A stretch of DNA of 39,638 bases from Candidatus Rokuibacteriota bacterium (GTDB lineage: Bacteria > Methylomirabilota > Methylomirabilia > Rokubacteriales > CSP1-6): NCBI GenBank assembly GCA_016866775.1, contig VGLJ01000044.1:1-39638 (forward strand). The letters run 5' to 3'. The notes under the pieces were generated by a model, which ran no database searches, was not told the DNA's origin, and saw only the letters and a list, made by a program, of their open reading frames with translations. The first letter of the stretch is position 1. Every line of letters begins with the position of its first letter. Positions 1 to 12,260 of the stretch are shown one piece after another. The translations under genes were made by a program, and so were the position numbers.

Positions 1-370
1 CGGGCGTGGGGCTCGCCGAAGATCCCCGTGACGGTTGGACTCGGTCGGAATCCGGGAAACCGATACGCATCCCACAGCCGACGCGGTCGTCGCGGAGGTG
101 GCATGCGGCGATCATCGCCGAATCTCGTGACCCTGCCGCAACGTTTCCGACCGCTGCCAGAGCGGGTTTCATCATCCTCGGCGGCCGCTTCTCACCCACT
201 CACTTCCACGAAGAGCCCTTTTTCATTCGAATGTGACGCTCTGTGCTGTTCACGTGAGCAGTACGCCGCGCGCTGCTCGCAGCCTATGCAGCCGGCGGAA
301 ATGGTGGCGAGCTAAGTCGCTGATTTCGTGAAGGGCGCGTGTGGCACTTCGCTTGCCTTGAACCGAGCGC
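1..370. other. Non-coding left edge with two short palindromes
   Basis: I find no convincing gene here: the short open frames have no recognisable domain and no ribosome binding site. The stretch around 200-310 is visibly less GC-rich than the coding DNA that follows. It contains a perfect 10-base palindrome, CATTCGAATG (224-233), and an imperfect 16-base palindrome, CTGTTCACGTGAGCAG (246-261). These could be operators for the ANTAR gene at 371 or for a gene left of the window. That role is inference only. Confidence 0.4.
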
Positions 371-997
371 ATGAGGGGCGAGCCCCGCTGGAAAGTCGCG
401 ATCGTCGACGACCACGAGCGCTCGCGCGCCGCGCTCCGTGCCGCCATCTGGGCGGCCGGCGGTGAAGTGGCCGGCGAGGCGTATCGCGGCGCCGACGCGC
501 TCGCGCTGGTGCAGGGCACGCGCCCGCACGTCGCCGTGTTCGCGGTCGGCTTGCCCGACGGCGACGGCATCGACGTCGCGACCGAGGTGATCGACAAGGC
601 CGGCTGCCCGGTCGTGCTCTTCACCAGTCACACCGACGAGAAGCTCACCGAGCGCGCGCGCGAGGCGGGCGTGATGGCGTACCTCCTGAAGCCGCTGCGG
701 CCCGCGGAGCTCGCCCCGGCGCTCGATCTCGCGGTGGCGCGCTTCCGCGAGACCCAGGAGCTCAAGCAGACGCTCGAGGATCGCAAGGTGATCCAGCGCG
801 CGAAGGGCCGCCTCATGGCGCGTCACGCGCTGACCGAGGAGCAGGCGTTCCAGCGCATGCGTCGCGCGGCCATGGACACGCGGCGCCCGATGGTCGAGAT
901 CGCGCGCGCCCTGCTCGTCTCCGATACTGTCCCCACGGGAGCGTCCTCGCTCCCCACGGGAGCGTCCTCGCTCCCCACGGGACCACAGAGTTCCTGA
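371..997 (+). CDS. AmiR/NasT-type ANTAR antiterminator with a degenerate receiver domain
   Basis: This 208-aa protein has a receiver-like domain (about residues 7-120) and a C-terminal ANTAR RNA-binding domain (about 127-184). The ANTAR core is clear: AKGRLM at 144-149, then EEQAFQRMRRAAM. ANTAR proteins bind paired hexaloop hairpins in nascent leaders and prevent termination. The receiver keeps the acidic pair D13-D14 and the switch Lys K107. The phosphoacceptor Asp, expected before GLPDGDG, is Ala58. Pseudomonas AmiR likewise has a non-phosphorylatable receiver and is controlled by AmiC, a relative of UrtA-type binding proteins. Control by ligand or partner protein rather than by a kinase is therefore likely (inference). 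The last residues (TGASSLP, twice) come from a tandem DNA repeat. The gene lies 106 bases before urtA, its probable target. Confidence 0.9.
   Translation: MRGEPRWKVAIVDDHERSRAALRAAIWAAGGEVAGEAYRGADALALVQGTRPHVAVFAVGLPDGDGIDVATEVIDKAGCPVVLFTSHTDEKLTERAREAGVMAYLLKPLRPAELAPALDLAVARFRETQELKQTLEDRKVIQRAKGRLMARHALTEEQAFQRMRRAAMDTRRPMVEIARALLVSDTVPTGASSLPTGASSLPTGPQSS
931..982 (+). repeat. Tandem 21-base hairpin-forming repeat, 2.5 copies
   Basis: The unit CCCCACGGGAGCGTCCTCGCT occurs at 931-951 and 952-972, followed by a partial copy at 973-982. The unit is a multiple of three and encodes a TGASSLP repeat at the end of the ANTAR protein. Where two copies join, GCTCCC-CAC-GGGAGC (949-963) can form a 6-bp hairpin. 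Confidence 0.85.
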
Positions 998-1103
998 CCG
1001 CTCGCGTGCTTGCGATCGAATCTGGACAACGAGGTCCAATCGCGAGGGCGACGACGCCGTCGCCCGGGTCCGATCCCCAATGTCCTCCACGAAAGGAGCT
1101 CGT
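998..1103 (+). promoter_or_regulatory. Structured urtA leader: candidate ANTAR target and RBS-sequestering hairpin
   Basis: Three hairpins can be drawn. Hairpin A (1023-1038) pairs TGGAC with GTCCA around the hexaloop AACGAG, which has A at position 1 and G at position 4, the published signature of ANTAR target loops. Hairpin B (1046-1065) pairs GGGCGAC with GTCGCCC around GACGCC; it has G at position 4 but not A at position 1, and can close to a tetraloop. Hairpin C (1085-1098) pairs CTCC with GGAG around ACGAAA and so hides the Shine-Dalgarno AAAGGAG of urtA. There is no T-run after hairpin B, so it is not a textbook terminator. Regulation is inferred. Confidence 0.5.
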
Positions 1104-2402
1104 ATGTCCACCGTCTCGCGTCGAAGTTTCCTGAAGGGCACCCTTGCCGCCGGCGCCGGCCTCGCGGCCGGCGTCGGGCTGCCGAGCATCATCACCGCTC
1201 AGGGCAAGGAGCCGGTGAAGATCGGCGTCCTCCACTCGCTGTCCGGCACGATGGCGATCAGCGAAGTCTCGCTGCGCGACGTCGTGCTGATGGCGGTCGA
1301 GGAGGTCAACGCCAAGGGCGGCGTGATGGGCCGCAAGATCCAGCCCGTCGTCGTCGACCCCGCGTCGAACTGGGACCTCTTCGCCGAGAAGGCGAAGCAG
1401 CTCCTGCTCCAGGACAAGGTCGCGGTCGTTTTTGGCTGCTGGACGTCGGTCAGCCGCAAGTCCGTGCTGCCCGTCTTCGAGAACAACAACGGCCTGCTCT
1501 TCTATCCGGTCCAGTATGAAGGGGAGGAGTGCAGCAAGAACGTCTTCTACACCGGCGCCACGCCGAACCAGCAGCTCATCCCCGGCGCCGAGTACCTGAT
1601 GTCGAAGGAGGGCGGCGCCTACAAGAAGTTCTACCTGCTCGGCACCGACTACGTGTTCCCGCGCACGGCGAACAAGATCCTCCGCGCGTTCCTGCTCGCC
1701 AAGGGCGTGCCCGCGTCGAACATCGAGGAGGAATACACGCCGTTCAGCCACCAGGACTACCAGACGATCGTCGGCAAGATCAAACGCTTCTCCTCGGGCG
1801 GCGGCGCGTGCGTGCTCTCGACGATCAACGGCGACAGCAACGTGCCGTTCTACAAGGAGTTCGCGAACCAGGGCCTGCGCTCGGAGAACGCGCCGATCAT
1901 GGCGTACAGCGTCGCGGAGGACGAGCTGCGCGGCATGGACACCTCGGCGCTCGTCGGCCACCTCGCGGCGTGGAACTACTTCCAGTCGGTCGAGTCGCCC
2001 GCGAACACGAAGTTCGTCAAGGCGTTCAAGGACTACTGCAAGAAGCGCAACCTGCCGGGCGGCGACAAGCGCGTGACGGACGATCCGATCGAGGCCGCCT
2101 ACTTCGGCGTCCACGTCTGGAAGCAGGCCGTCGAGAAGGCGAAGAGCTTCGAGGTCGACGCGGTGCGCAAGGCCGTGTACGGCCAGACCTTCGCGGCGCC
2201 GGTCGGCACCATCAAGATGCACGAGCACAACCACCACACGTACCGTCCCGTGCTCATCGGCGAGATCCTGAAGAACGGCCAGTTCAAGATCATCTCGCGC
2301 ACCAAGGGCAACGTGGAGCCGGAGCCGTGGAGCAAGTACACGAGCCCGGACAAGGGCTGCGACTGGGTGAAGCACCAGGGGACGTATCAGAAGAAGGCGT
2401 AG
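1104..2402 (+). CDS. urtA: Urea ABC transporter substrate-binding protein
   Basis: This is the periplasmic urea receptor of the UrtABCDE high-affinity importer, a type-1 Peripla_BP_5 protein related to AmiC. The start is ATG 1104, preceded by AAAGGAG at 1092-1098; an in-frame ATG at 1080 has no RBS. The 432-aa product begins with a twin-arginine signal (SRRSFLKG, residues 5-12, then a hydrophobic stretch ending near ITAQG). The mature part starts with the typical VKIGVLHSLSGTMAISE segment and contains PASNWDLFAEKAK and GCWTSVSRKSVLPVFE, as expected for UrtA. Length is normal for the family. It is first in the urt operon, and its upstream leader may be read by the ANTAR protein at 371. Confidence 0.96.
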   Translation: MSTVSRRSFLKGTLAAGAGLAAGVGLPSIITAQGKEPVKIGVLHSLSGTMAISEVSLRDVVLMAVEEVNAKGGVMGRKIQPVVVDPASNWDLFAEKAKQLLLQDKVAVVFGCWTSVSRKSVLPVFENNNGLLFYPVQYEGEECSKNVFYTGATPNQQLIPGAEYLMSKEGGAYKKFYLLGTDYVFPRTANKILRAFLLAKGVPASNIEEEYTPFSHQDYQTIVGKIKRFSSGGGACVLSTINGDSNVPFYKEFANQGLRSENAPIMAYSVAEDELRGMDTSALVGHLAAWNYFQSVESPANTKFVKAFKDYCKKRNLPGGDKRVTDDPIEAAYFGVHVWKQAVEKAKSFEVDAVRKAVYGQTFAAPVGTIKMHEHNHHTYRPVLIGEILKNGQFKIISRTKGNVEPEPWSKYTSPDKGCDWVKHQGTYQKKA

Positions 2403-2422: not shown

Positions 2423-4063
2423 GTGAAGCGACTGCTCCTGCTGGTGTTCGTGGCGTGGCTCGCCGGTCCGACGGCGAGCCACGCGCAGTCCGCCGTGAAG
2501 GCGCTCGCGGACCTCGCGCTCGAGGACGGGGACACGCGCGACGCCGCCGTCACGGTGCTGGGGTCCACGCGCGACCCGAAGTGGCTCGAGTTCCTCACGG
2601 CGTTGCGCGACGGCAACGTCTACGCGAGGAAGGACGGCGGCACGACCGAGATCGTGGTCGCCGGCGCCAAGTCGACGAAGGGCGACCAGGACGTCGTCGA
2701 GATCACGACCGCGTACGATCGCACGCCGCTCGGCACCGTGCCGCTCGCGTCGCTCACGGAAGTGGCCGCCGATCGCCGCCTCCGCATCACCATCAAGCCG
2801 TTCCTGGAAGCGGACGAGACGCGTGAGCAGCTGGCGAGTCCCGATCCGGAGATGCGGTATGGCGCCGCCGTGAAGCTCGGGCACCAGGCGGACGCCGCCG
2901 CGGCCACGGTGGTCGAAGCGGCGATCGCCAAGGAGACGAACGCGCGCGTGCGGCACGCGCTGCACGAGGCGCTCGCGCTCATCCGCCTGGCGCATGGCGA
3001 GCCGGCCGTGCGCGTGCTCGCCGCCCGGACGCTCGGCGGCCTGCATTCGTTCGAGGCCATGCCGGCGCTGCAGAAGCTCGCGTCCGACGCCGCCGCCTCG
3101 GCGGCGGAGCGCGACGCCGCGACGGCCGCGATCCGCCGCGTCGAGCGCTGGGGTCTGATGATCCGGACGCTGGAGACGGTGTTCCACGGCGCCTCGCTCG
3201 CGTCGATCCTCCTCTTGATGTCGGTGGGCCTCGCGATCGTCTTCGGGCTCATGGGCGTGATCAACATGGCGCACGGCGAGCTGATGGCGCTCGGGGCCTA
3301 CAGCACGTTCGTCGTCCAGAACATCGTCAGGGCGCGCTGGCCGGACTGGTTCGACGCCTACTTCGTGGTCGCGCTGCCGGTGTCGTTCGTCGTCGCGGCC
3401 GCGGTCGGCGTTGTGCTCGAGCGCGGCGTCATCCGTCGGCTCTACGGCCGTCCGCTCGAGACGCTGCTGCTCACGTGGGGCGCGTCGCTGATCGTCCAGC
3501 AGGGTCTTCGCCTGTGGTTCGGCGCCGCGAACGTCGACGTCTCGTCGCCGCGCTGGCTCTCGGGCGGCTTCACGTTGATGACCGGGCTCACGCTGCCGTT
3601 CAACCGGCTCTTCGTCATCGGGCTGGCGGGGGTGAGCGTCGCCGGGATGTACTGGCTCCTGTTCCGCACGAACCGCGGGCTCACGATCCGCGCGGTGACG
3701 CAGAACCGCGCGATGAGCGCGTGCCTCGGCGTGCGCGCGGGTGCGGTCGACGCGGTCACGTTCGGGCTCGGCGCCGGGCTCGCGGGGCTCGCGGGCGCAG
3801 CACTCACGCAGATCGGCAACGTGGGGCCGTCGCTCGGCCAGAACTACATCGTCGACTCGTTCATGGTCGTCGTGACCGGCGGGGTGGGAAAGCTCGCGGG
3901 CACGATCCTCGCGGCCGCGGGGATCGGCGGCCTGAACAAGGGCATCGAGCCCGCGCTCGGCGCGGTCTTCGCGAAGGTCGCGATCCTCATCGCGGTCATC
4001 CTCTTCCTGCAGCGGCGGCCGGCCGGGCTGTTCGCGCCGCGAGGGCGTCATGCCGAAGCGTGA
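2423..4063 (+). CDS. urtB: Urea ABC transporter permease with a long exported N-terminal region
   Basis: This is one of the two inner-membrane permeases of the urea importer (branched-chain amino acid permease family). The start chosen is GTG 2423, which gives a signal peptide (KRLLLLVFVAWLAG...SHA) and 546 aa. Residues about 25-240 are an alanine-rich helical region with HEAT-like repeats, outside the transport core. The permease core begins near residue 245 (LASILLLMSVGLAIVFGLMGVINMAHGE) and ends at RRPAGLFAPRGR. A long N-terminal extension is common in UrtB of many proteobacteria, so it is not unique. The gap to urtA is 20 bases, and the stop overlaps urtC by 14 bases. Confidence 0.94.
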   Translation: MKRLLLLVFVAWLAGPTASHAQSAVKALADLALEDGDTRDAAVTVLGSTRDPKWLEFLTALRDGNVYARKDGGTTEIVVAGAKSTKGDQDVVEITTAYDRTPLGTVPLASLTEVAADRRLRITIKPFLEADETREQLASPDPEMRYGAAVKLGHQADAAAATVVEAAIAKETNARVRHALHEALALIRLAHGEPAVRVLAARTLGGLHSFEAMPALQKLASDAAASAAERDAATAAIRRVERWGLMIRTLETVFHGASLASILLLMSVGLAIVFGLMGVINMAHGELMALGAYSTFVVQNIVRARWPDWFDAYFVVALPVSFVVAAAVGVVLERGVIRRLYGRPLETLLLTWGASLIVQQGLRLWFGAANVDVSSPRWLSGGFTLMTGLTLPFNRLFVIGLAGVSVAGMYWLLFRTNRGLTIRAVTQNRAMSACLGVRAGAVDAVTFGLGAGLAGLAGAALTQIGNVGPSLGQNYIVDSFMVVVTGGVGKLAGTILAAAGIGGLNKGIEPALGAVFAKVAILIAVILFLQRRPAGLFAPRGRHAEA

Positions 4064-5165
4064 GACGGGAGCACTCGTCGCGATCGCGTTCGTCCTCGTC
4101 GTCGTGCTTCCGCTGCTGAACGCGCTGCCGCCGTCGTCGCCGTTCCACGTCTCCAACTTCACGCTGAACCTCTTCGGCAAGTTCCTGACCTACGCGATCC
4201 TGGCGCTCGGGCTCGACCTCCTGTGGGGCTACGCCGGCGTGCTGAGCCTCGGGCACGGCGTGTTCTTCGGGCTCGGCGCGTACGCGATGGGCATGCACCT
4301 GATGCTGGAGATCGGCACGCAGAGCGTCTACCAGAGCGCGCTGCCCGACTTCATGGTCTGGAACCAGGTGAAGACGCTGCCGCTCTTCTGGTGGCCGTTC
4401 CACAGCGCTCTGGTCACGCTGATCGCGATCGTCGCGATCCCCGCGCTCGTCGCGGCGGCGTTCGGCTTCCTCGCGTTCCGCAGCCGGATTCGCGGCGTCT
4501 ACTTCTCGATCATCACGCAGGCGCTCGCGCTGTCCGCGTGGCTCGTCTTCAACCGCAACGAGATGAACCTCGGCGGCACCAACGGGCTCGCCGACTTCAA
4601 GACGATCTTCGGCTTCCGCCTGAACCAGGCGTCGACGCAGCGTGGCCTCTACGTCGCGACGGCGCTCGCGCTCGCGGGCGCGTACCTGTTGTGCCGATGG
4701 ATCACGCGCACGCGCGCCGGCAAGGTGCTGGTCGCGATCCGCGACAGCGAGACCCGCGTGCTGTTCTCGGGCTACGCGCCGGCGAACTACAAGCTGTTCG
4801 TCTTCGTGGTCTCCGCAGCGCTCGCGGGGGTGGCCGGCGCGCTCTACGCGCCGCAGGTCGGGATCATCACCCCCGCGAAGATCGGCGTGCTGCCGTCGAT
4901 CGAGATGGTCGTGTGGGTCGCGGCGGGCGGCCGCGGCACGCTGGTCGGCGCGGTCGTCGGCGCGTTCGGCGTGAACTGGATCCAGAGCTGGCTCACGACC
5001 AGCTATCCGGACCTGTGGCTCCTGTTCCTCGGCGCGCTCTTCATGGGCGTCGTCTTGTTCTTCCCCGACGGAGTTGTCGGCGCCGTCGCGCGGCTCTGGG
5101 CGCGCGCCCGCGCGGTGGGCCGCCGCGCGCCGGTCGAGCGCGCGCTGGAACAGGCGGCGCGATGA
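4050..5165 (+). CDS. urtC: Urea ABC transporter permease UrtC
   Basis: This is the second membrane-spanning subunit of the urea importer (LivM-like), 371 aa. It starts at ATG 4050 inside the urtB end. Hydrophobic segments run along the whole length. Family landmarks are LLWGYAGVLSLGHGVFFGLGAY (about residues 53-74), a loop holding NRNEMNLGGTNGL, and GRGTLVGAVVGAFGVNW near the C-terminus. It pairs with UrtB to form the pore. Its TGA stop overlaps the ATG of urtD (ATGA), which indicates translational coupling. Confidence 0.95.
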   Translation: MPKRETGALVAIAFVLVVVLPLLNALPPSSPFHVSNFTLNLFGKFLTYAILALGLDLLWGYAGVLSLGHGVFFGLGAYAMGMHLMLEIGTQSVYQSALPDFMVWNQVKTLPLFWWPFHSALVTLIAIVAIPALVAAAFGFLAFRSRIRGVYFSIITQALALSAWLVFNRNEMNLGGTNGLADFKTIFGFRLNQASTQRGLYVATALALAGAYLLCRWITRTRAGKVLVAIRDSETRVLFSGYAPANYKLFVFVVSAALAGVAGALYAPQVGIITPAKIGVLPSIEMVVWVAAGGRGTLVGAVVGAFGVNWIQSWLTTSYPDLWLLFLGALFMGVVLFFPDGVVGAVARLWARARAVGRRAPVERALEQAAR

Positions 5166-5956
5166 CGGATGCCGGCGCGATCATCTACTGCGAGGACGTG
5201 ACCGTCGACTACGACGGCTTCAAGGCGCTGAGCCGGCTCAACTTCTTCATGGACCGCCGGGAGCTGCGCGTCGTGATCGGCCCGAACGGCGCCGGCAAGA
5301 CGACGCTGCTCGACGTGATCTCCGGCCGCGTGAAGCCGGCCACCGGCCGCGTGATCTTCGGCCATCACACCGACCTGCTCCCGCTCAGGGAGAACCAGAT
5401 CGCCGCGCTCGGGGTCGGGCGGAAGTTCCAGACGCCGTCGGTGTTCGTGAACCTCACCGTGCGCGACAACGTGGAGCTCTCGCTGCGGCGGGCGAGCAAG
5501 GGCGTGTTCGCCACGCTCTTCGAGCGCAACACACAGGCGCGCCTCCGGCGCGACGGCGACGAGGAGGCGCGGATCGACGCGACGCTCGAGAGGGTGGGCC
5601 TCGCGCCCAAAGCGGACTGGCTGGCGGGACGGCTCTCGCACGGGGAAAAGCAGTGGCTCGAGATCGGCATGGTGATCGCGCAGGATCCCGAGCTGCTGCT
5701 GGTCGACGAGCCGGTCGCGGGCATGACCGACGAGGAGACGGCACGGACGGGTGAGCTGCTCCGGTCCATCGCCGCGGACCGCTCGGTGCTCGTCATCGAG
5801 CACGACATGGAGTTCGTGCGGCAGATCGCCCGCAAGGTGACCGTGCTGCACCAGGGCACCGTGCTCTGCGAGGGCCCCGTCGAGCAGGTGCAATCGGATC
5901 CCCGCGTGCTCGAGGTCTACCTCGGTCAGCGCAAGGACACGCATGCTGACCGTTGA
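5162..5956 (+). CDS. urtD: Urea ABC transporter ATPase UrtD
   Basis: This is a cytoplasmic ATP-binding subunit of the urea importer (LivG-like), 264 aa. The Walker A motif GPNGAGKT lies near residue 41, the ABC signature is LSHGEKQWLEIGM, and the Walker B is LLLVDEPVAGM. The helical insert typical of LivG/UrtD proteins follows the Q-loop region (KFQTPSVFVNLTVRDN). The start at ATG 5162 overlaps the urtC stop. The end overlaps urtE by 14 bases, so the two ATPases are probably made in equal amounts. Confidence 0.96.
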   Translation: MTDAGAIIYCEDVTVDYDGFKALSRLNFFMDRRELRVVIGPNGAGKTTLLDVISGRVKPATGRVIFGHHTDLLPLRENQIAALGVGRKFQTPSVFVNLTVRDNVELSLRRASKGVFATLFERNTQARLRRDGDEEARIDATLERVGLAPKADWLAGRLSHGEKQWLEIGMVIAQDPELLLVDEPVAGMTDEETARTGELLRSIAADRSVLVIEHDMEFVRQIARKVTVLHQGTVLCEGPVEQVQSDPRVLEVYLGQRKDTHADR

Positions 5957-6632
5957 GCGCCTCGACGCCGCGTACGGCGACTCGCAGGTCCTGTGGAGCG
6001 TCGACCTCACGGTGCCGGCGAAGAGCGTCGTGTGCCTGATGGGAAGAAACGGTGTCGGCAAGACGACGCTGCTGAAGACGATCATGGGACTGATCCCGGC
6101 GCGCGGGGGCCGCGTGACGTTCGCCGGCGCCGACGTCACGCGGTGGTCGAGCGATCGTCGCGCGCGCGCCGGCATCGGCTACGTCCCGCAGGGCCGCGAG
6201 ATCTTTCCACACCTGACGGTCGAGGAAAACCTTCGGATGGCGCTGCTCGGCTGCGGACGCGCGGACGCCATCGACGACGCGCTCGAGCTCTTTCCCGCGC
6301 TCAAGCCGCTGCTCCGCCGCAAGGGCGGCGTGCTGTCGGGCGGCGAGCAGCAGCAGCTCGCGATCGGCCGCGCGCTGCTTACGCGGCCGAAGGTGCTCAT
6401 GCTGGACGAGCCCACGGAAGGTATCCAGCCCTCGATCGTGCTGGAGATCGAGGACGCGATCCGCCGCATCGCCGGCGAGCTCGGGCTCGCCGTGCTGCTG
6501 GTGGAGCAGTACCTGGACTTCGCCGAGCGGCTCGCGGATGCTTACGCCATCATGGCGAAGGGCGCCGTCGTCGCCGCCGGGGTGACGAGCGAGCTGCGCC
6601 TCGAGACCGTCAAGCACCACCTGTCGCTCTGA
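5943..6632 (+). CDS. urtE: Urea ABC transporter ATPase UrtE
   Basis: This is the second ATP-binding subunit of the urea importer (LivF-like), 229 aa. Motifs are Walker A GRNGVGKTT (near residue 34), signature LSGGEQQQLAIGRAL and Walker B VLMLDEPTEGIQPS. The GIQPS after Walker B is usual for UrtE/LivF proteins. It starts at ATG 5943 within the urtD end. It is the last transporter gene. A 54-base spacer with a GC hairpin separates it from ureA, so transporter and urease may share one transcript with a processing or attenuation point between them. Confidence 0.96.
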   Translation: MLTVERLDAAYGDSQVLWSVDLTVPAKSVVCLMGRNGVGKTTLLKTIMGLIPARGGRVTFAGADVTRWSSDRRARAGIGYVPQGREIFPHLTVEENLRMALLGCGRADAIDDALELFPALKPLLRRKGGVLSGGEQQQLAIGRALLTRPKVLMLDEPTEGIQPSIVLEIEDAIRRIAGELGLAVLLVEQYLDFAERLADAYAIMAKGAVVAAGVTSELRLETVKHHLSL

Positions 6633-6686: not shown

Positions 6687-6989
6687 ATGCATCTCACGCC
6701 GCGCGAGCAGGAGAAGCTCCTCATCTTCACCGCCGCGGAGGTCGCGCGACGCCGCCGCGGTCGCGGGCTGAAGCTCAACCATCCGGAAGCCGTGGCGCTG
6801 ATCACCGCGGAGATCCTGGAAGGCATCCGTGACGGGCGCTCCGTCTCCGAGCTGATGGAGTTCGGCGCGACGATCCTGCGCCGCGACGACGTCATGGAAG
6901 GCGTGCCCGAGATGGTCGACGAGGTGCAGGTGGAGGGCACGTTTCCCGACGGCACGAAGCTCGTGACCGTGCACCAGCCGATCCGATGA
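6687..6989 (+). CDS. ureA: Urease gamma subunit
   Basis: This is the small structural subunit of the nickel enzyme urease, which hydrolyses urea to ammonia and carbamate in the cytoplasm. The 100-aa product has the usual length and the family opening [19 protein letters not shown], and ends [20 protein letters not shown] lies just before ATG 6687. Its stop overlaps the next start by 4 bases (ATGA). The next gene is a LysE-type exporter rather than ureB, which is unusual. Confidence 0.97.
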
Positions 6990-7651
6990 CGCTCGAGACC
7001 TGGGCGCTCTTCGCGATCACCGAGGCGGCGCTCTGCTTCACGCCGGGGCCCGCGGTGCTGCTCGTCCTGTCGCAAGGCTTGACGCGCGGCACCGGCCCGT
7101 CGGTCTACGCGAACCTCGGCATCCTCACCGGCAACGCGGTCTACTTCGCGCTGTCGGCGACGGGGCTCGGCGCGGTGCTCCTGGCCTCGTATGAGCTGTT
7201 CTCGGCGATCCGCTGGATCGGCGCCGCGTACCTCGTGTGGCTCGGCGTGACCGCGTTCTTCGGCCGGTCGCGGGTACTCACGGTCGACGCGGCGGCGCCG
7301 ACGAGTGCCGCGCGCACGTTCGTCAACGGCGTCGTGCTCCAGGTCGCCAACCCGAAGGCGCTGGTCTTCTTCGTCGCGCTGCTGCCGCCGTTCATCGATC
7401 CGCGCGGCGCGGTGCTGCCGCAGGTGGCGATCCTCGGCGTGACGAGCGTGATCATCGAGTTCGTCGTGCTGCTCGCGTACGGCGCGCTCGCGGGACGCCT
7501 CACCGTGGTGGCCGCGCGGCCGCGCTTCCACACGCTCGCGAACCGCGTGGCGGGCACGATGCTGGTCGCGGCGGGTGTGAGCGTGGCCTTACAGAGGGGG
7601 CTTGGGGGTCCGGTGTCATGGGGCCCCCAGGTTCAGGGGAGATCCGCGTGA
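6986..7651 (+). CDS. LysE/RhtB-family amino acid exporter inserted in the urease operon
   Basis: This 221-aa inner-membrane protein belongs to the LysE/RhtB translocator family. It shows the [14 protein letters not shown] motif near the N-terminus, the [14 protein letters not shown] segment, [17 protein letters not shown], and about six hydrophobic segments. These transporters export amino acids or small amine-containing molecules; the substrate here is unknown. It lies between ureA and ureB, overlapping each by 4 bases, so it is translationally coupled to both. Its last roughly 20 residues are read from the second hairpin-RBS repeat and are not hydrophobic family sequence. That suggests the C-terminus was remodelled when the segment was inserted or duplicated. 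Confidence 0.9.
7591..7647 (+). repeat. Hairpin-plus-RBS segment, copy 2 (before ureB)
   Basis: The stem GGGGGTCC (7604-7611) pairs with GGGCCCCC (7621-7628) around loop GGTGTCATG, followed by GTTCAGGGGAGA, the ureB ribosome binding site. By eye about three quarters of the bases match copy 1 at 6634-6683. This copy also encodes the end of the LysE-family protein. Confidence 0.7.
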
Positions 7652-7998
7652 TCCCAGGCGAGTACCTGCTCGGCGACGGCGACATCGTCGCCAACGAAGG
7701 CCGCGCGACGGTGGAACTCGTCGTTGCCAACACGGGCGATCGGCCGATCCAGGTGGGCTCCCACTTCCACTTCTTCGAGGTCAACCGCGCGCTGCGCTTC
7801 GAGCGCGGAAGGGCGTTCGGCATGCGGCTCAACATCCCCGCGGGCACGGCGGTGCGCTTCGAGCCCGGGGACGAGAAGCGCGTCACGCTCGTCGAGATCG
7901 CCGGGGCCAGGCGCGTGTTCGGCCTGAACGGGCTCACCGAGGGCCAGGCGAAGGACGCGGCACTCGCGCGCCTCGCGGCGTGGGAGCGGCCGTCGTGA
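7648..7998 (+). CDS. ureB: Urease beta subunit
   Basis: This is the second small urease subunit, 116 aa, starting at GTG 7648 ([12 protein letters not shown], the standard UreB opening). The conserved [14 protein letters not shown] and [18 protein letters not shown] segments are present. The C-terminus ([18 protein letters not shown]) is a little longer than in short UreB proteins. CAGGGGAG at about 7635-7642 is the RBS. The stop overlaps the GTG of ureC. Confidence 0.96.
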
Positions 7999-9713
7999 CG
8001 CTCAGACTGACCCGCCGGCAGTACGCCGATCTCTACGGGCCGACGGTCGGCGACCGCGTGCGGCTGGCGGACACCGAGCTGTTCGTCCGCGTCGAGCGCG
8101 ATCTCACCGTGCCCGGCGAAGAGGCGAAGTTCGGCGGCGGCAAGGTCATCCGCGACGGCATGGGGCAGTCCGCGCGTGCCACGCGCGCCGAGGGCGTGCT
8201 CGACTGCGTGATCACCAACGCGCTGATCGTCGACCACTGGGGGATCGTGAAGGCGGACATCGGCATCCGCGACGGCCGCATCGTCGGCGTCGGCAAGGCC
8301 GGGAATCCGGATCTCATGGCCGGCGTGTCGCCGTCGATGGTCGTGGGCGCCTCGACGGAGGTCATCGCGGGCGAAGGGCGCATCGTCACCGCGGGCGGGC
8401 TCGACAGCCACATCCACTTCATCTGCCCGCAGCTCGTGGGGGACGCGATCAGCGCGGGCCTCACCACGCTCCTCGGTGGCGGGACCGGGCCGGCGACGGG
8501 GACGAACGCGACGACGTGCGCGCCGGGTGAGTGGAACATCCACCGCATGCTCGAAGCGGCCGAGGCGTTTCCCATGAACCTCGGGTTCCTCGGCAAGGGC
8601 AACGCCTCCGCGCCGGAGCCGTTGCGCGAGCAGATCCACGCGGGCGCGATCGGCCTGAAGCTGCACGAGGACTGGGGGACGACACCGGCGGCGATCGACA
8701 CCGCGCTCGGCGTGGCCGAGGAGCTCGACGTCCAGGTCGCCATCCACACCGACACGCTGAACGAGTCCGGGTTCGTCGAGGACTCGATCCGCGCGTTCAA
8801 GGGGCGGACGATCCACACGTATCACACCGAGGGCGCCGGTGGCGGCCACGCGCCCGACATCATCAAGGTGTGCGGCGAGCCGAACTGTCTGCCGTCGTCC
8901 ACGAATCCCACGATGCCGTTCACCGTGAACACGATGGACGAGCACCTCGACATGCTGATGGTCTGCCACCACCTGAATCCGAAGATCCCCGAGGACCTGG
9001 CGTTCGCCGAGTCGCGGATCCGCGCGGAGACGATCGCGGCGGAAGACGTGCTGCACGACCTCGGCGCGATCAGCATGATGTCGTCCGACTCGCAGGCGAT
9101 GGGCCGCATCGGCGAGGTCGTGATCCGCACGTGGCAGACGGCCGACAAGATGAAGCGACAGCGCGGGGCGCTGCCCGGTGAGACCGCCGGCGACGACAAC
9201 CGGCGCGTGAAGCGCTACGTGGCGAAGTACACGATCAACCCGGCGATCGCGCACGGCCTCGCCTCCGAGGTGGGGTCGGTCGAGACCGGCAAGCTCGCGG
9301 ACCTCGTCGTGTGGAAGCCGGCGTTCTTCGGCGTGAAGCCCGAGCTCGTGCTCAAAGGCGGCTTCATCGCGTGGGCGGCGATGGGCGACCCGAACGCCTC
9401 GATCCCCACGCCACAGCCCGTGCTCTACCGGCCGATGTTCGCGGCGCACGGCCGGGCCCGCGCGTCCACGTGCGTGACGTTCGTCTCGCGTGCGGCGCTC
9501 GACGCCGGCGTGCCGGCGCGTCTCGGGCTCACGCGTCGTGCCGTCGCCGTCTCGCGCTGCCGGTCGATCGGCAAGCGCGACATGGTCCACAACAACGCGC
9601 TGCCCCGCATCGAGGTCGACGCGGAGACGTACGAAGTCCGCGCCGACGGCGAGCTGCTCACGTGCGAGGCGGCGCGCGTGCTGCCGATGGCGCAGCGCTA
9701 TTTCCTGTTCTGA
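7995..9713 (+). CDS. ureC: Urease alpha (catalytic) subunit
   Basis: This is the catalytic nickel-binding subunit, 572 aa, full length, starting at GTG 7995. Active-site motifs are intact. HIHF carries the two His metal ligands. GLKLHEDWG carries the Lys that becomes carbamylated. [10 protein letters not shown] and [12 protein letters not shown] carry further His ligands. MVCHHL in the flap carries the catalytic His, and SSDSQAMGR carries the Asp ligand. The enzyme should therefore be active once nickel is loaded by the UreEFGD proteins encoded just downstream. It is coupled to ureB by a 4-base overlap. Confidence 0.98.
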
Positions 9714-9714
9714 G

Positions 9715-10170
9715 ATGAACGACGCGCCGGTCGTCACCGCCACCCGCGTGCACGTGCACGATGACCAGCTGGCTCGCCTCGAGCGCGATCGTCTCGTGCT
9801 CTCCGCGGAAGAGCGGCGGTGGGGACGGCGCCGCGTCAAGACGGAGAAAGGCCGCGAGCTCGTGCTCGCGCTCCCGACGGGCAGCGTCCTGGAGCCGGGG
9901 CACGTCCTTCACGTCGATCGCGAGTCCTACGTCGTCATCGAAGCCGCGGTCGAAGCCGTGCTGGTCATCTCGCCGCGCGATCGTGACGAGATGGTCCGCG
10001 TCGCGTTCGAGGTGGGCAATCGCCACTTCACCGTCGCCATCGACGGCGATCGCCTGCTCGTCCCCGACGACGTCGCGATGGAGCAGCTGCTCGAGCGGAT
10101 CGGCGTGCCGTGGAAGCGCGATCGCGCCGTGTTCGCGCCCCTCGGCGCCGGGCATCGCCATGACCATTGA
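9715..10170 (+). CDS. ureE: Urease nickel metallochaperone UreE
   Basis: UreE delivers Ni(II) to the urease apoprotein complex. The 151-aa frame begins one base after the ureC stop. It has the N-terminal peptide-binding-like region (RLVLSAEERRWGRRRVKTEKGRE) and the C-terminal metal-binding fold (VGNRHFTVAIDGDRLLV, VPDDVAMEQLL). The tail GAGHRHDH has three His residues, far shorter than the long His tail of the Klebsiella protein. The end overlaps ureF by 11 bases. Confidence 0.94.
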   Translation: MNDAPVVTATRVHVHDDQLARLERDRLVLSAEERRWGRRRVKTEKGRELVLALPTGSVLEPGHVLHVDRESYVVIEAAVEAVLVISPRDRDEMVRVAFEVGNRHFTVAIDGDRLLVPDDVAMEQLLERIGVPWKRDRAVFAPLGAGHRHDH

Positions 10171-10846
10171 CCTGCTCGCGCTGCTGCAGATCAGCGATGG
10201 CCTCTTCCCGGCCGGGGGCTTCGCGCACTCGCTCGGACTCGAGACCTACACGCAGGCCGGCGTCGTCAAGGACGGTGCGGGCGTGGACGCGTTCGTGCGG
10301 GCGCATCTCGACGGGAGCGCCGGACCGGGTGACGCCGTCGCCGTCGTGGCCGCGGTTCGCGCGGGAGCTGCCGCCCAGCTCGCCCCCTGCCTCGAGCTCG
10401 ACGCGCGGGTGGACGCGATGCGGTTCGTCCCCGAGTTCACGGCCGCGAGCAGGCAGATGGGGCGGCAGACGCTGCGCGTGGCCGCCGCCTGGCAGCGCGA
10501 TGCGCTCGTCGAAGCCTTCAACGCGCGCGTCGAGTCCGGAGCGACGCCCGGCCACTATCCGGTCGTGTTCGGGATCGTCGCGGGACGCTGCGGCATCGAC
10601 CCCCAAGCCGCGGCGGCCGCGTACCTCTTTGCGACGGCTTCGATGCTCGTGAACGCGGCGCTGCGGCTGCTCGCCATCGGCCAGGTCGAAGGACAGCGCG
10701 TGCTGGCGGCGCTCCGGCCGCGCATCGCGGCCCTCGCCGCAGACGCCGCCCGGGCGTCGATCGGCGACATGTGGAGCTTCACGCCCGGCCTCGAGCTCGC
10801 GGGCCTTCGCCACGCGGGGCTCGACATGAGGCTGTTCCGATCGTGA
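10160..10846 (+). CDS. ureF: Urease accessory protein UreF
   Basis: UreF forms the UreD-UreF-UreG activation complex and guides nickel and CO2 insertion into UreC. The 228-aa helical protein opens with [23 protein letters not shown], the diagnostic UreF segment, and ends [22 protein letters not shown], the conserved C-terminus that contacts UreG. ATG 10160 overlaps the ureE end, and the TGA overlaps the GTG of ureG. Confidence 0.95.
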
Positions 10847-11469
10847 TTCCGAAACCGCTCAAGATCGGCATCGGCGGCCCGGTCGGCTCGGGCAAGACCG
10901 CGCTGACGGAGGCGTTGTGCCTGCGCTTCCGCGACGAGGTCGACATGGCCGTCATCACCAACGACATCTATACGAAGGAGGACGCGGAGTTCCTCGTGCG
11001 CCGCGGCGCCTTGCCGCCTCCGCGCGTGCTCGGCGTGGAGACGGGCGGCTGCCCGCACACGGCGATACGGGAAGATGCTTCGGTGAATCTCGAGGCGATA
11101 CGAGAACTGACGACTCGATTTCCAGCACTCGACCTGCTGATCGTGGAGAGCGGCGGCGATAATTTGGCGGCAACGTTCAGCCCCGAGCTGGTCGACGCCA
11201 CGATCTACGTGATCGACGTCGCCGAGGGCGAGAAGATCCCGCGCAAGGGCGGCCCCGGCATCACGCGCTCCGACCTGCTCGTCATCAACAAGATCGATCT
11301 CGCGCCCTACGTGGGCGCCGACCTCGCGGTGATGGACCGCGACGCTCGGCGCATGCGCGGGGAGCGCCCGTTCGTCTTCACCAACCTGAGGGATGGCGTC
11401 GGCGTGGACGCCGTGGTGGAGTGGATCCGCAAGGACCTCCTGCTCGCGTCGGGCGCGACGGCGCGCTGA
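10843..11469 (+). CDS. ureG: Urease accessory GTPase UreG
   Basis: This SIMIBI-class GTPase drives nickel transfer during urease maturation; 208 aa from GTG 10843. It shows a P-loop GPVGSGKT, the metal-binding Cys-Pro-His motif in [19 protein letters not shown], the [17 protein letters not shown] segment and the NKID guanine-specificity motif. There is no long N-terminal His stretch. It overlaps ureF by 4 bases and is itself overlapped by the likely ureD start. Confidence 0.97.
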
Positions 11470-12260
11470 GCCTGCGCTTCGAGCGGAGGGGCGATGCCAC
11501 CGTGCTCGCCGGCTGCCGCTCGACGCTGCCGCTGCAGGTGCTCTCGCCGCTGGCGCTCGACGATGCCTCGCTCGTGGTCTCGATCCTCAACCCGACGGGC
11601 TCGGTGCTCGGCGGCGATCGTCTGCGCATCGATGTCCACGCGGGCGCCGGCGCTCACGCGCTGCTGACGACGCCGTCCGCGACGCGCGTCCACCGGACGG
11701 ACGGTCCCGTCGCGGTGCAGGAGGTTCAGCTCGCCGTCGAGTCCGGCGCGGCGGTGGAGTGGGTGCCGGACCACACGATCCCGCACGCGGGCGCCGCCTT
11801 TCGCCAGGTCATTCGCGCCCACGTCGCGGGGGATGCGACGCTCCTCGCGGTCGACGCGTTCGCCGTCGGCCGCGTGGCGCGCGGCGAAGCGTTCGATTTT
11901 CGCAGTCTCGAGAGCGCGCTCCAGATCGTCGACGACGACGGCTGGCTCCTGCACGACCGGTTCGTGCTGGCGGGCGAGGATCGGTGGCGCGGCCTGGGGT
12001 TCTGTGAAGGTGCGCCGTATCTCGCGACCATCGTGGCCGTGGCGCCGGCGCCCGCGGAGACGCTCGCGCGCGAGGCCGGCGCGGCGCTCGCCGCCGTCTG
12101 CGGGATGCGCGGGGGGGTCGGGCGCCTGCCGCGACGCGGGATCCTCGTGCGCTGCCTCGCCGAGACGGCGCCCGCGCTCGGCGACGCCGTGCGCGCCACG
12201 TGGAACGCGCTCCGGACGGCGGCGCTCGGCGCCGAGCCGCTCGACCTCAGAAAGTACTAG
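11421..12260 (+). CDS. ureD: Urease accessory protein UreD/UreH
   Basis: UreD is the scaffold that binds urease and recruits UreF-UreG. The frame reads [29 protein letters not shown], then [38 protein letters not shown], which is typical UreD sequence. The first in-frame start is GTG 11421, inside ureG (about 49-base overlap). The true start is uncertain because no ATG lies closer to the conserved part. Having ureD last, after ureG, is one of several known orders. It completes a full set of structural and accessory urease genes; no nickel importer is encoded nearby. Confidence 0.92.

Follow-up and report, generated by a model that had tools for sequence, protein, structure and literature searches.

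The kinases that act on the ANTAR regulators EutV and PdtaR, EutW and PdtaS, are of the HisKA_2 type, and GnfR is an ANTAR protein in a sigma-54 cascade. Pseudo-receivers are common, but whether selection favored the loss of the phosphoacceptor, and what took over from the kinase, is seldom clear. In nitrogen metabolism, NitR of Clostridium saccharobutylicum is an ANTAR regulator of a glutamine synthetase cluster (PMC6316151), and ANTAR RNAs have been predicted upstream of urea transporters, ammonium transporters, P-II and nitrite reductase (Ramesh et al. 2012, PMC3369931). Two hairpins, P1 and P2, with an overlapping terminator are the layout shown for EutV, and ANTAR elements that lack a terminator may act on translation (PMC3369931). 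Precedents exist for ANTAR proteins with pseudo-receivers, for ANTAR regulons linked to nitrogen and for predicted ANTAR RNAs at urea transporters. Here, we describe a regulator from a soil bacterium that, as one element of general nitrogen control, probably governs urea uptake with no sensor kinase involved.

The stretch of DNA that we analyzed, hereafter the window, is 39,638 nucleotides long and comes from a Candidatus Rokuibacteriota assembly. As the earlier note had stated, a gene for a receiver-ANTAR protein lies directly 5' of a urea importer, whose first gene, urtA, begins at position 1104. The features discussed below are collected in Table 1.

Table 1. Positions in the window of the regulator gene, the urtA leader elements and the genes downstream.
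Feature	Position	Strand	Details
Sigma-54 (-24/-12) promoter-like site upstream of the regulator, TGGCACTTCGCTTGC	342..356	+	exact TGGCAC-N5-TTGC match, the sole one in the window
Receiver-ANTAR regulator gene, Ala58 replacing the phosphoacceptor Asp	371..997	+	208 aa
Regulator codon 58, GCG (Ala)	542..544	+	
Perfect tandem repeat of 21 bp, 2.5 copies, in frame, in the divergent C-terminal tail of the regulator	930..982	+	
P1 hairpin, GGAC[AACGAG]GTCC (putative)	1024..1037	+	hexaloop with A1 and G4
P2 hairpin, GGGCGAC[GACGCC]GTCGCCC (putative)	1046..1065	+	hexaloop with G1 and G4; covarying stem
urtA start-codon region, CTCGTATGTCC, complementary to P1 bases 1024-1033 (GGACAACGAG)	1099..1109	+	
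urtA, encoding the binding protein of the urea ABC transporter, with a Tat signal; leads the operon presumed to be controlled	1104..2402	+	TIGR03407 579 bits, TAT_signal
urtB, urtC, urtD, urtE (urtB start approximate)	2423..6632	+	BPD_transp_2, TIGR03408, TIGR03411, ABC_tran
Urease genes ureA, ureB, ureC, ureF, ureG, ureD, 3' of the importer	6687..12260	+	

Pfam identified a Response_reg domain at residues 9-117 of the regulator (6.8e-19, 68 bits) and a C-terminal ANTAR domain at residues 130-182 (2.5e-20, 72.5 bits against a Pfam cut-off of 27.3). The active-site acid pair D13 and D14 is present, as are T85 and K107. The phosphoacceptor aspartate that characterizes canonical response regulators is absent from the protein: Ala58 aligned opposite the phosphoacceptor Asp of Rv1626/PdtaR (1s8n) and EutV (6wsh), with the motif 'vfAvglP' in the regulator compared to 'imDvkmP' and 'lmDiqmP' in those two proteins. 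These domain matches and alignments bear out the initial reading of a receiver that retains D13, D14 and K107 but carries Ala58, followed by an ANTAR domain. The usual residue for receiver phosphorylation is gone, so no phosphate would be accepted at this position. The predicted structure has a good receiver-helix-ANTAR fold (mean pLDDT 88), with EutV (E 5.5e-18) and AmiR (E 1.1e-9) among its fold neighbors and fold-alignment identities of 40% to Rv1626 and 20% to AmiR. By sequence and by fold, the nearest kin of the regulator are PdtaR and EutV and not AmiR, which argues against the analogy that had been drawn with the AmiR/AmiC pair. The tail of the window protein, VPTGASSLPTGASSLPTGP, arises from the 21-bp repeat and is absent from relatives in the homologue alignment; the repeat at 930-982 occupies about the spot at which many relatives have the urtA sigma-54 promoter. 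In the window's subclade, the receiver-ANTAR coiled coil is also one heptad shorter, exactly seven residues that more distant members retain being absent after residue 129.

A homologue search in 148 related genomes returned close matches for most of those in the same family and class, and Ala58 is present in all homologues with more than about 45% identity. Codon 58 specifies Ala in 71 of 72 homologous loci and Gly in the other one, as expected from the proposal that the alanine is conserved, and all four Ala codons are used (GCC 32, GCG 31, GCT 5, GCA 3). Among the homologues adjacent to urtA, we found none that keeps the Asp, the case that the earlier note had named as refuting its reading. 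Codons 13, 14 and 107 specify Asp, Asp and Lys in nearly all 72 loci, and Thr/Ser85 is likewise kept. Residues D14, K107, L61, V59 and A58 are near invariant while their codons vary synonymously, indicating that the receiver domain is under purifying selection. In a maximum-likelihood tree, for which root and direction of change are not given, one branch (98/96) splits 64 Ala58 proteins from 79 Asp58 proteins, the latter mostly from Actinomycetota, Chloroflexota and Armatimonadota. Further pocket residues are lost within the Ala58 clade in the receivers of loci L066, L069 and L070. At L248 (genome G227), a related regulator encoded at most about 3 kb from glnK-amtB shows one more loss of the phosphoacceptor, with a shortened loop and Gly where the family has Ala58.

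The contig begins at window position 1, and genes upstream of the regulator therefore lie outside the window. In relatives, the gene order is glnK-amtB-glnA-[regulator]-urtABCDE-ure, and the linkage to glutamine synthetase, ammonium transporter and P-II genes that characterizes NitR-type regulators is found in this upstream glnK-amtB-glnA. Methylomirabilis-type genomes have amtB-[regulator] with no urtA, the two genes often separated by about 10 bases, and in these the regulator adjoins amtB but not glnK or glnA. In a class to which a Syntrophobacter MAG belongs, most Ala58 homologues again lie near glnA, glnK or amtB where the contig extends far enough. A scan of public genomes found glnK, amtB or glnA within 5 kb of 11 of 11 Ala58 loci compared to 0 of 69 Asp58 loci (Fisher 1e-13, with shared ancestry ignored). 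In the genome to which the window belongs, glnK-amtB-glnA lies 1.6 kb from the edge of contig C27 and points toward that end. An overlap join of C27 to the window contig failed, the two having no 17-mers in common; the position of these genes is consistent with a broken link to the window contig, without proving linkage in this species. Collectively, the sequences delineate a conserved clade of predicted pseudo-receivers, distinct in the Asp/Ala position and tied to glnK-amtB-glnA.

Genomes in which no urtA was detected also retain the regulator, which must therefore serve more than urea. The idea of urea-specific regulation was rejected on the basis of this retention and of the linkage to glnK-amtB-glnA. 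Several smaller observations concern the surrounding genes. Two loci (L090 in G031 and L094 in G012) lack the urt and ure genes, and there the regulator is followed by a DUF47-Pit phosphate transporter pair, which in the window sits 3' of the urease genes. A gene for a LysE-type translocator of 221 aa lies between ureA and ureB (window 6986-7651), unlike in relatives, where ureA and ureB appear adjacent. The Rfam family 5' ureB sRNA (RF02514, 66 bits) matched at 8148-8442 on the minus strand, antisense to the urease coding region; this match is probably conserved urease coding sequence read from the opposite strand and not a real sRNA.

The gap between the regulator and urtA contains two candidate hairpins, in which one of the four key loop bases deviates (position 1 of the P2 loop is G, not A). 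Of 37 distinct regulator-urtA leaders, 23 contain the motif GAC[ANNGNN]GTC, compared to 0.25 expected, and it was found zero times in the glnK-amtB, amtB-glnA, glnA-regulator and amtB-regulator gaps. Covariation of P2 is evident from 99% of cells paired and three pairs with double changes; P1 is invariant in the leader set and so provides no such evidence. We searched with a covariance model, R1, of ten rows, the window sequence among them. The best match in its own genome was at 1020-1068 with 47.7 bits; the next scored 29, 26.6 and 25.2 bits, no further target in that genome stood clearly above background, and the lower-scoring sites inspected there included none of the known nitrogen genes of the query set. 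Genome G009, which was left out of R1, served as a blind test: its regulator lies behind glnA with no urtA nearby, and its best R1 match fell just upstream of urtA on another contig. In G008, the motif is present at urtA and the regulator was undetected in that assembly. Eleven further leaders (L084 type) have a related, conserved pair of candidate hairpins, judged by eye only. Rfam at gathering thresholds returned no ANTAR-type match in the window, and a strict dual-hexaloop scan missed the window because its P2 loop begins with G. On these sequence comparisons, a two-hairpin ANTAR element occupies the urtA leader at 1024-1065 and is conserved in relatives, and it is likely the target of the regulator.

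Leaders that follow or lie close to the regulator at L040, L045, L050 and L070 combine P1-P2 with an overlapping U-run terminator. At L050 and L045, the gene downstream encodes ferredoxin-nitrite reductase (nirA), and nitrite assimilation is likely another target of the Ala58 family. The complete P1-P2-terminator leaders lie at L050:3110-3220 and, in L045 (G057), between the regulator and nirA. We found no intrinsic U-tract terminator overlapping P2 in the window leader, and antitermination there is therefore not supported. The claim of kinase-independent antitermination of the urea operon thus survives in part: a likely RNA target is present in the urtA leader and a HisKA_2 kinase was not found, whereas antitermination at this locus lacks support for want of a U-tract terminator. 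The complementarity between P1 and the urtA start-codon region is realized as pairing with the ATG in the predicted ground state of the window leader. Over 23 leaders, own P1-start pairs had a value of -14.3 kcal/mol compared to -12.7 for permuted pairs (0/10000, shared ancestry uncorrected); in the GGACAA subset the values were -17.5 and -15.7 kcal/mol (4/10000, again uncorrected for shared ancestry), and P1 was usually among the best 17-mers of its own leader. We looked for the same pairing in the terminator-bearing L040 and in the L084-type leaders, which have a different P1, and found none. With P1 and P2 forced in the window fold, the Shine-Dalgarno bases remained paired, indicating that opening of the leader is only partial. 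The modeled alternative folding suggests sequestration of the urtA start codon and hence translational control in the window leader.

The genome has a sigma-54 gene, and nearly all relatives have sites similar to the one in the window at -25 to -50 from the regulator start. A sigma-54 site precedes P1 in 45 of 51 regulator-urtA leaders, compared to 9.4 expected from shuffling, the 51 rows including overlapping loci of the same genomes. Leaders without a site of their own, the window's among them, have short gaps, which suggests that the window urtA leader is co-transcribed with the regulator from the regulator's putative sigma-54 promoter. The site at 342-356 would start transcription a few bases before the ATG and make the regulator mRNA nearly leaderless.

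We consider it moderately probable that this ANTAR protein regulates nitrogen assimilation independently of a kinase, switches the urtA leader through P1 and P2 and uses its receiver as a docking surface for a partner. In support, the genome has no match to a HisKA_2 kinase and the regulator is its only ANTAR gene; kinases of other types would lack their usual target because the phosphoacceptor Asp is missing. Nitrogen limitation would act through the sigma-54 promoter to yield the regulator and, by co-transcription in this locus, the urtA leader; a dimer of the ANTAR protein would then bind P1 and P2 and turn the leader on. Where relatives have a U-tract terminator, this binding would amount to classical antitermination. 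The window clade has no such terminator, and there confinement of P1 to its short hairpin would most likely free the urtA start codon, predicted to be otherwise paired with P1. The receiver, with its acid pocket and Lys but no phosphoacceptor, would most likely dock a nitrogen-assimilation partner rather than serve as a kinase target, with the P-II protein GlnK as the first candidate and glutamine synthetase as the second. GlnK and GlnA are candidate inputs by their linkage to the regulator; the Methylomirabilis-type genomes, in which amtB but neither glnK nor glnA adjoins it, count against them. More tentatively, and with the odds rather against it, the clade may be a phosphorylation-blind group derived from the kinase-driven type that senses the state of P-II or glutamine synthetase by direct contact, in which the window lineage has exchanged terminator control for a translational switch, P1 itself masking the urtA start codon.

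A serious rival, although we think it unlikely, needs no partner: the regulator could be constitutively active, always able to dimerise and bind, with sigma-54/NtrC-type control of its synthesis as the sole signal. The sigma-54 site 5' of the regulator in nearly all relatives would fit such a regulator, as would the content of its own genome, which is 97.5% complete, has no match to a PdtaS/EutW-type HisKA_2 kinase and yielded no clear cytoplasmic AmiC. Nor does any single partner gene lie next to it in every lineage. However, the acid pair, Thr/Ser85 and Lys107 are kept in nearly all 72 loci, conservation that would be puzzling in a receiver without an input, and most urtA leaders have a sigma-54 site of their own, so that the same signal would be read twice. 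An input of the AmiR/NasT kind, in which the regulator is kept inactive by a cytoplasmic binding protein that responds to urea or a different nitrogen compound, has precedent in AmiC-AmiR and NasS-NasT (PMC3369936, PMC3795266) and would suit a receiver that cannot accept phosphate at the usual site. We nevertheless judge it improbable. UrtA has a Tat signal and, as the earlier note had it, is exported; a simple hydropathy rule gave an export-like N-terminus for 19 of the genome's 20 other Peripla_BP_5-type proteins, and the last is an ambiguous frame behind an ABC ATPase. The suggested check for a cytoplasmic AmiC elsewhere in the genome thus gave no clear one among these proteins. In the relatives' loci, no conserved binding-protein gene other than urtA adjoins the regulator, which is itself nearer to PdtaR/EutV than to AmiR.

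The RNA element could instead be ordinary leader structure or a promoter-associated repeat and not an ANTAR target. The window leader has no U-tract terminator and its P2 loop starts with G, as such a reading would allow, but the restriction of the motif to urtA leaders, the A1/G4 hexaloops, the covariation, the tandem arrangement and the blind recovery 5' of urtA in G009 make it quite improbable, and homologous regulators elsewhere have complete P1-P2-terminator leaders. Least probable of all, in our estimate, is that Ala58 marks a decaying receiver, a relic next to an ANTAR domain that works alone. Losses of more pocket residues in L066, L069 and L070 and the Gly58 of L248 would be expected of decay, yet the Response_reg match still scores 68 bits, and near invariance of D14, K107, L61, V59 and A58 alongside synonymous variation points to purifying selection. 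The reading that we favor, a kinase-independent regulator with a docking receiver, makes of this clade a natural experiment: one residue is fixed, the pocket is kept, the gene neighborhood changes at the same branch and an RNA target is predicted. What drives a phosphorylation-blind ANTAR protein thereby becomes a directly testable question, and the proposal would be a first model of how nitrogen uptake is regulated in Rokubacteriales and Methylomirabilis relatives, which are abundant, mostly uncultured bacteria.

Compared with described systems, the regulator resembles NitR as an ANTAR protein in a nitrogen-assimilation cluster, NitR antiterminating GS/GOGAT genes under nitrogen limitation (PMC6316151), but it comes from another phylum and its family has putative sigma-54 promoters and urt/nirA targets. 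EutV and PdtaR/Rv1626 provide the nearest solved structures and share the receiver-coiled coil-ANTAR layout, and the RNA target of EutV is likewise of the two-hairpin type (PMC3369931). In contrast to the window protein, which has Ala and for which no HisKA_2 kinase was found, EutV with EutW and PdtaR with PdtaS keep the Asp and a cognate kinase. Like AmiR with AmiC and NasT with NasS, it would be a kinase-independent receiver-type ANTAR antiterminator of nitrogen genes, and AmiR too has a pseudo-receiver (PMC3369936, PMC7496416). AmiR differs in that fold identity to it is only 20%, against 40% to Rv1626, and the window protein keeps the acid pocket and Lys and has no clear cytoplasmic partner among those searched. 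The nitrogen-fixation response regulator and kinase pair GnfK/GnfR of Geobacter sulfurreducens (PMC7962754) is a further parallel, except that GnfR has a named cognate kinase, GnfK. The two-hairpin motif and the kinds of genes that carry it agree with the predictions of Ramesh et al. 2012, whose text (PMC3369931) contains neither this Methylomirabilota/Syntrophobacter-type clade nor the Ala58 receiver or the P1-start-codon pairing. As far as the searched literature shows, what is new here is a PdtaR/EutV-type clade with a fixed Ala58 in an otherwise intact pocket, its glnK-amtB-glnA neighborhood, its sigma-54 setting and the predicted pairing of P1 with the start codon.
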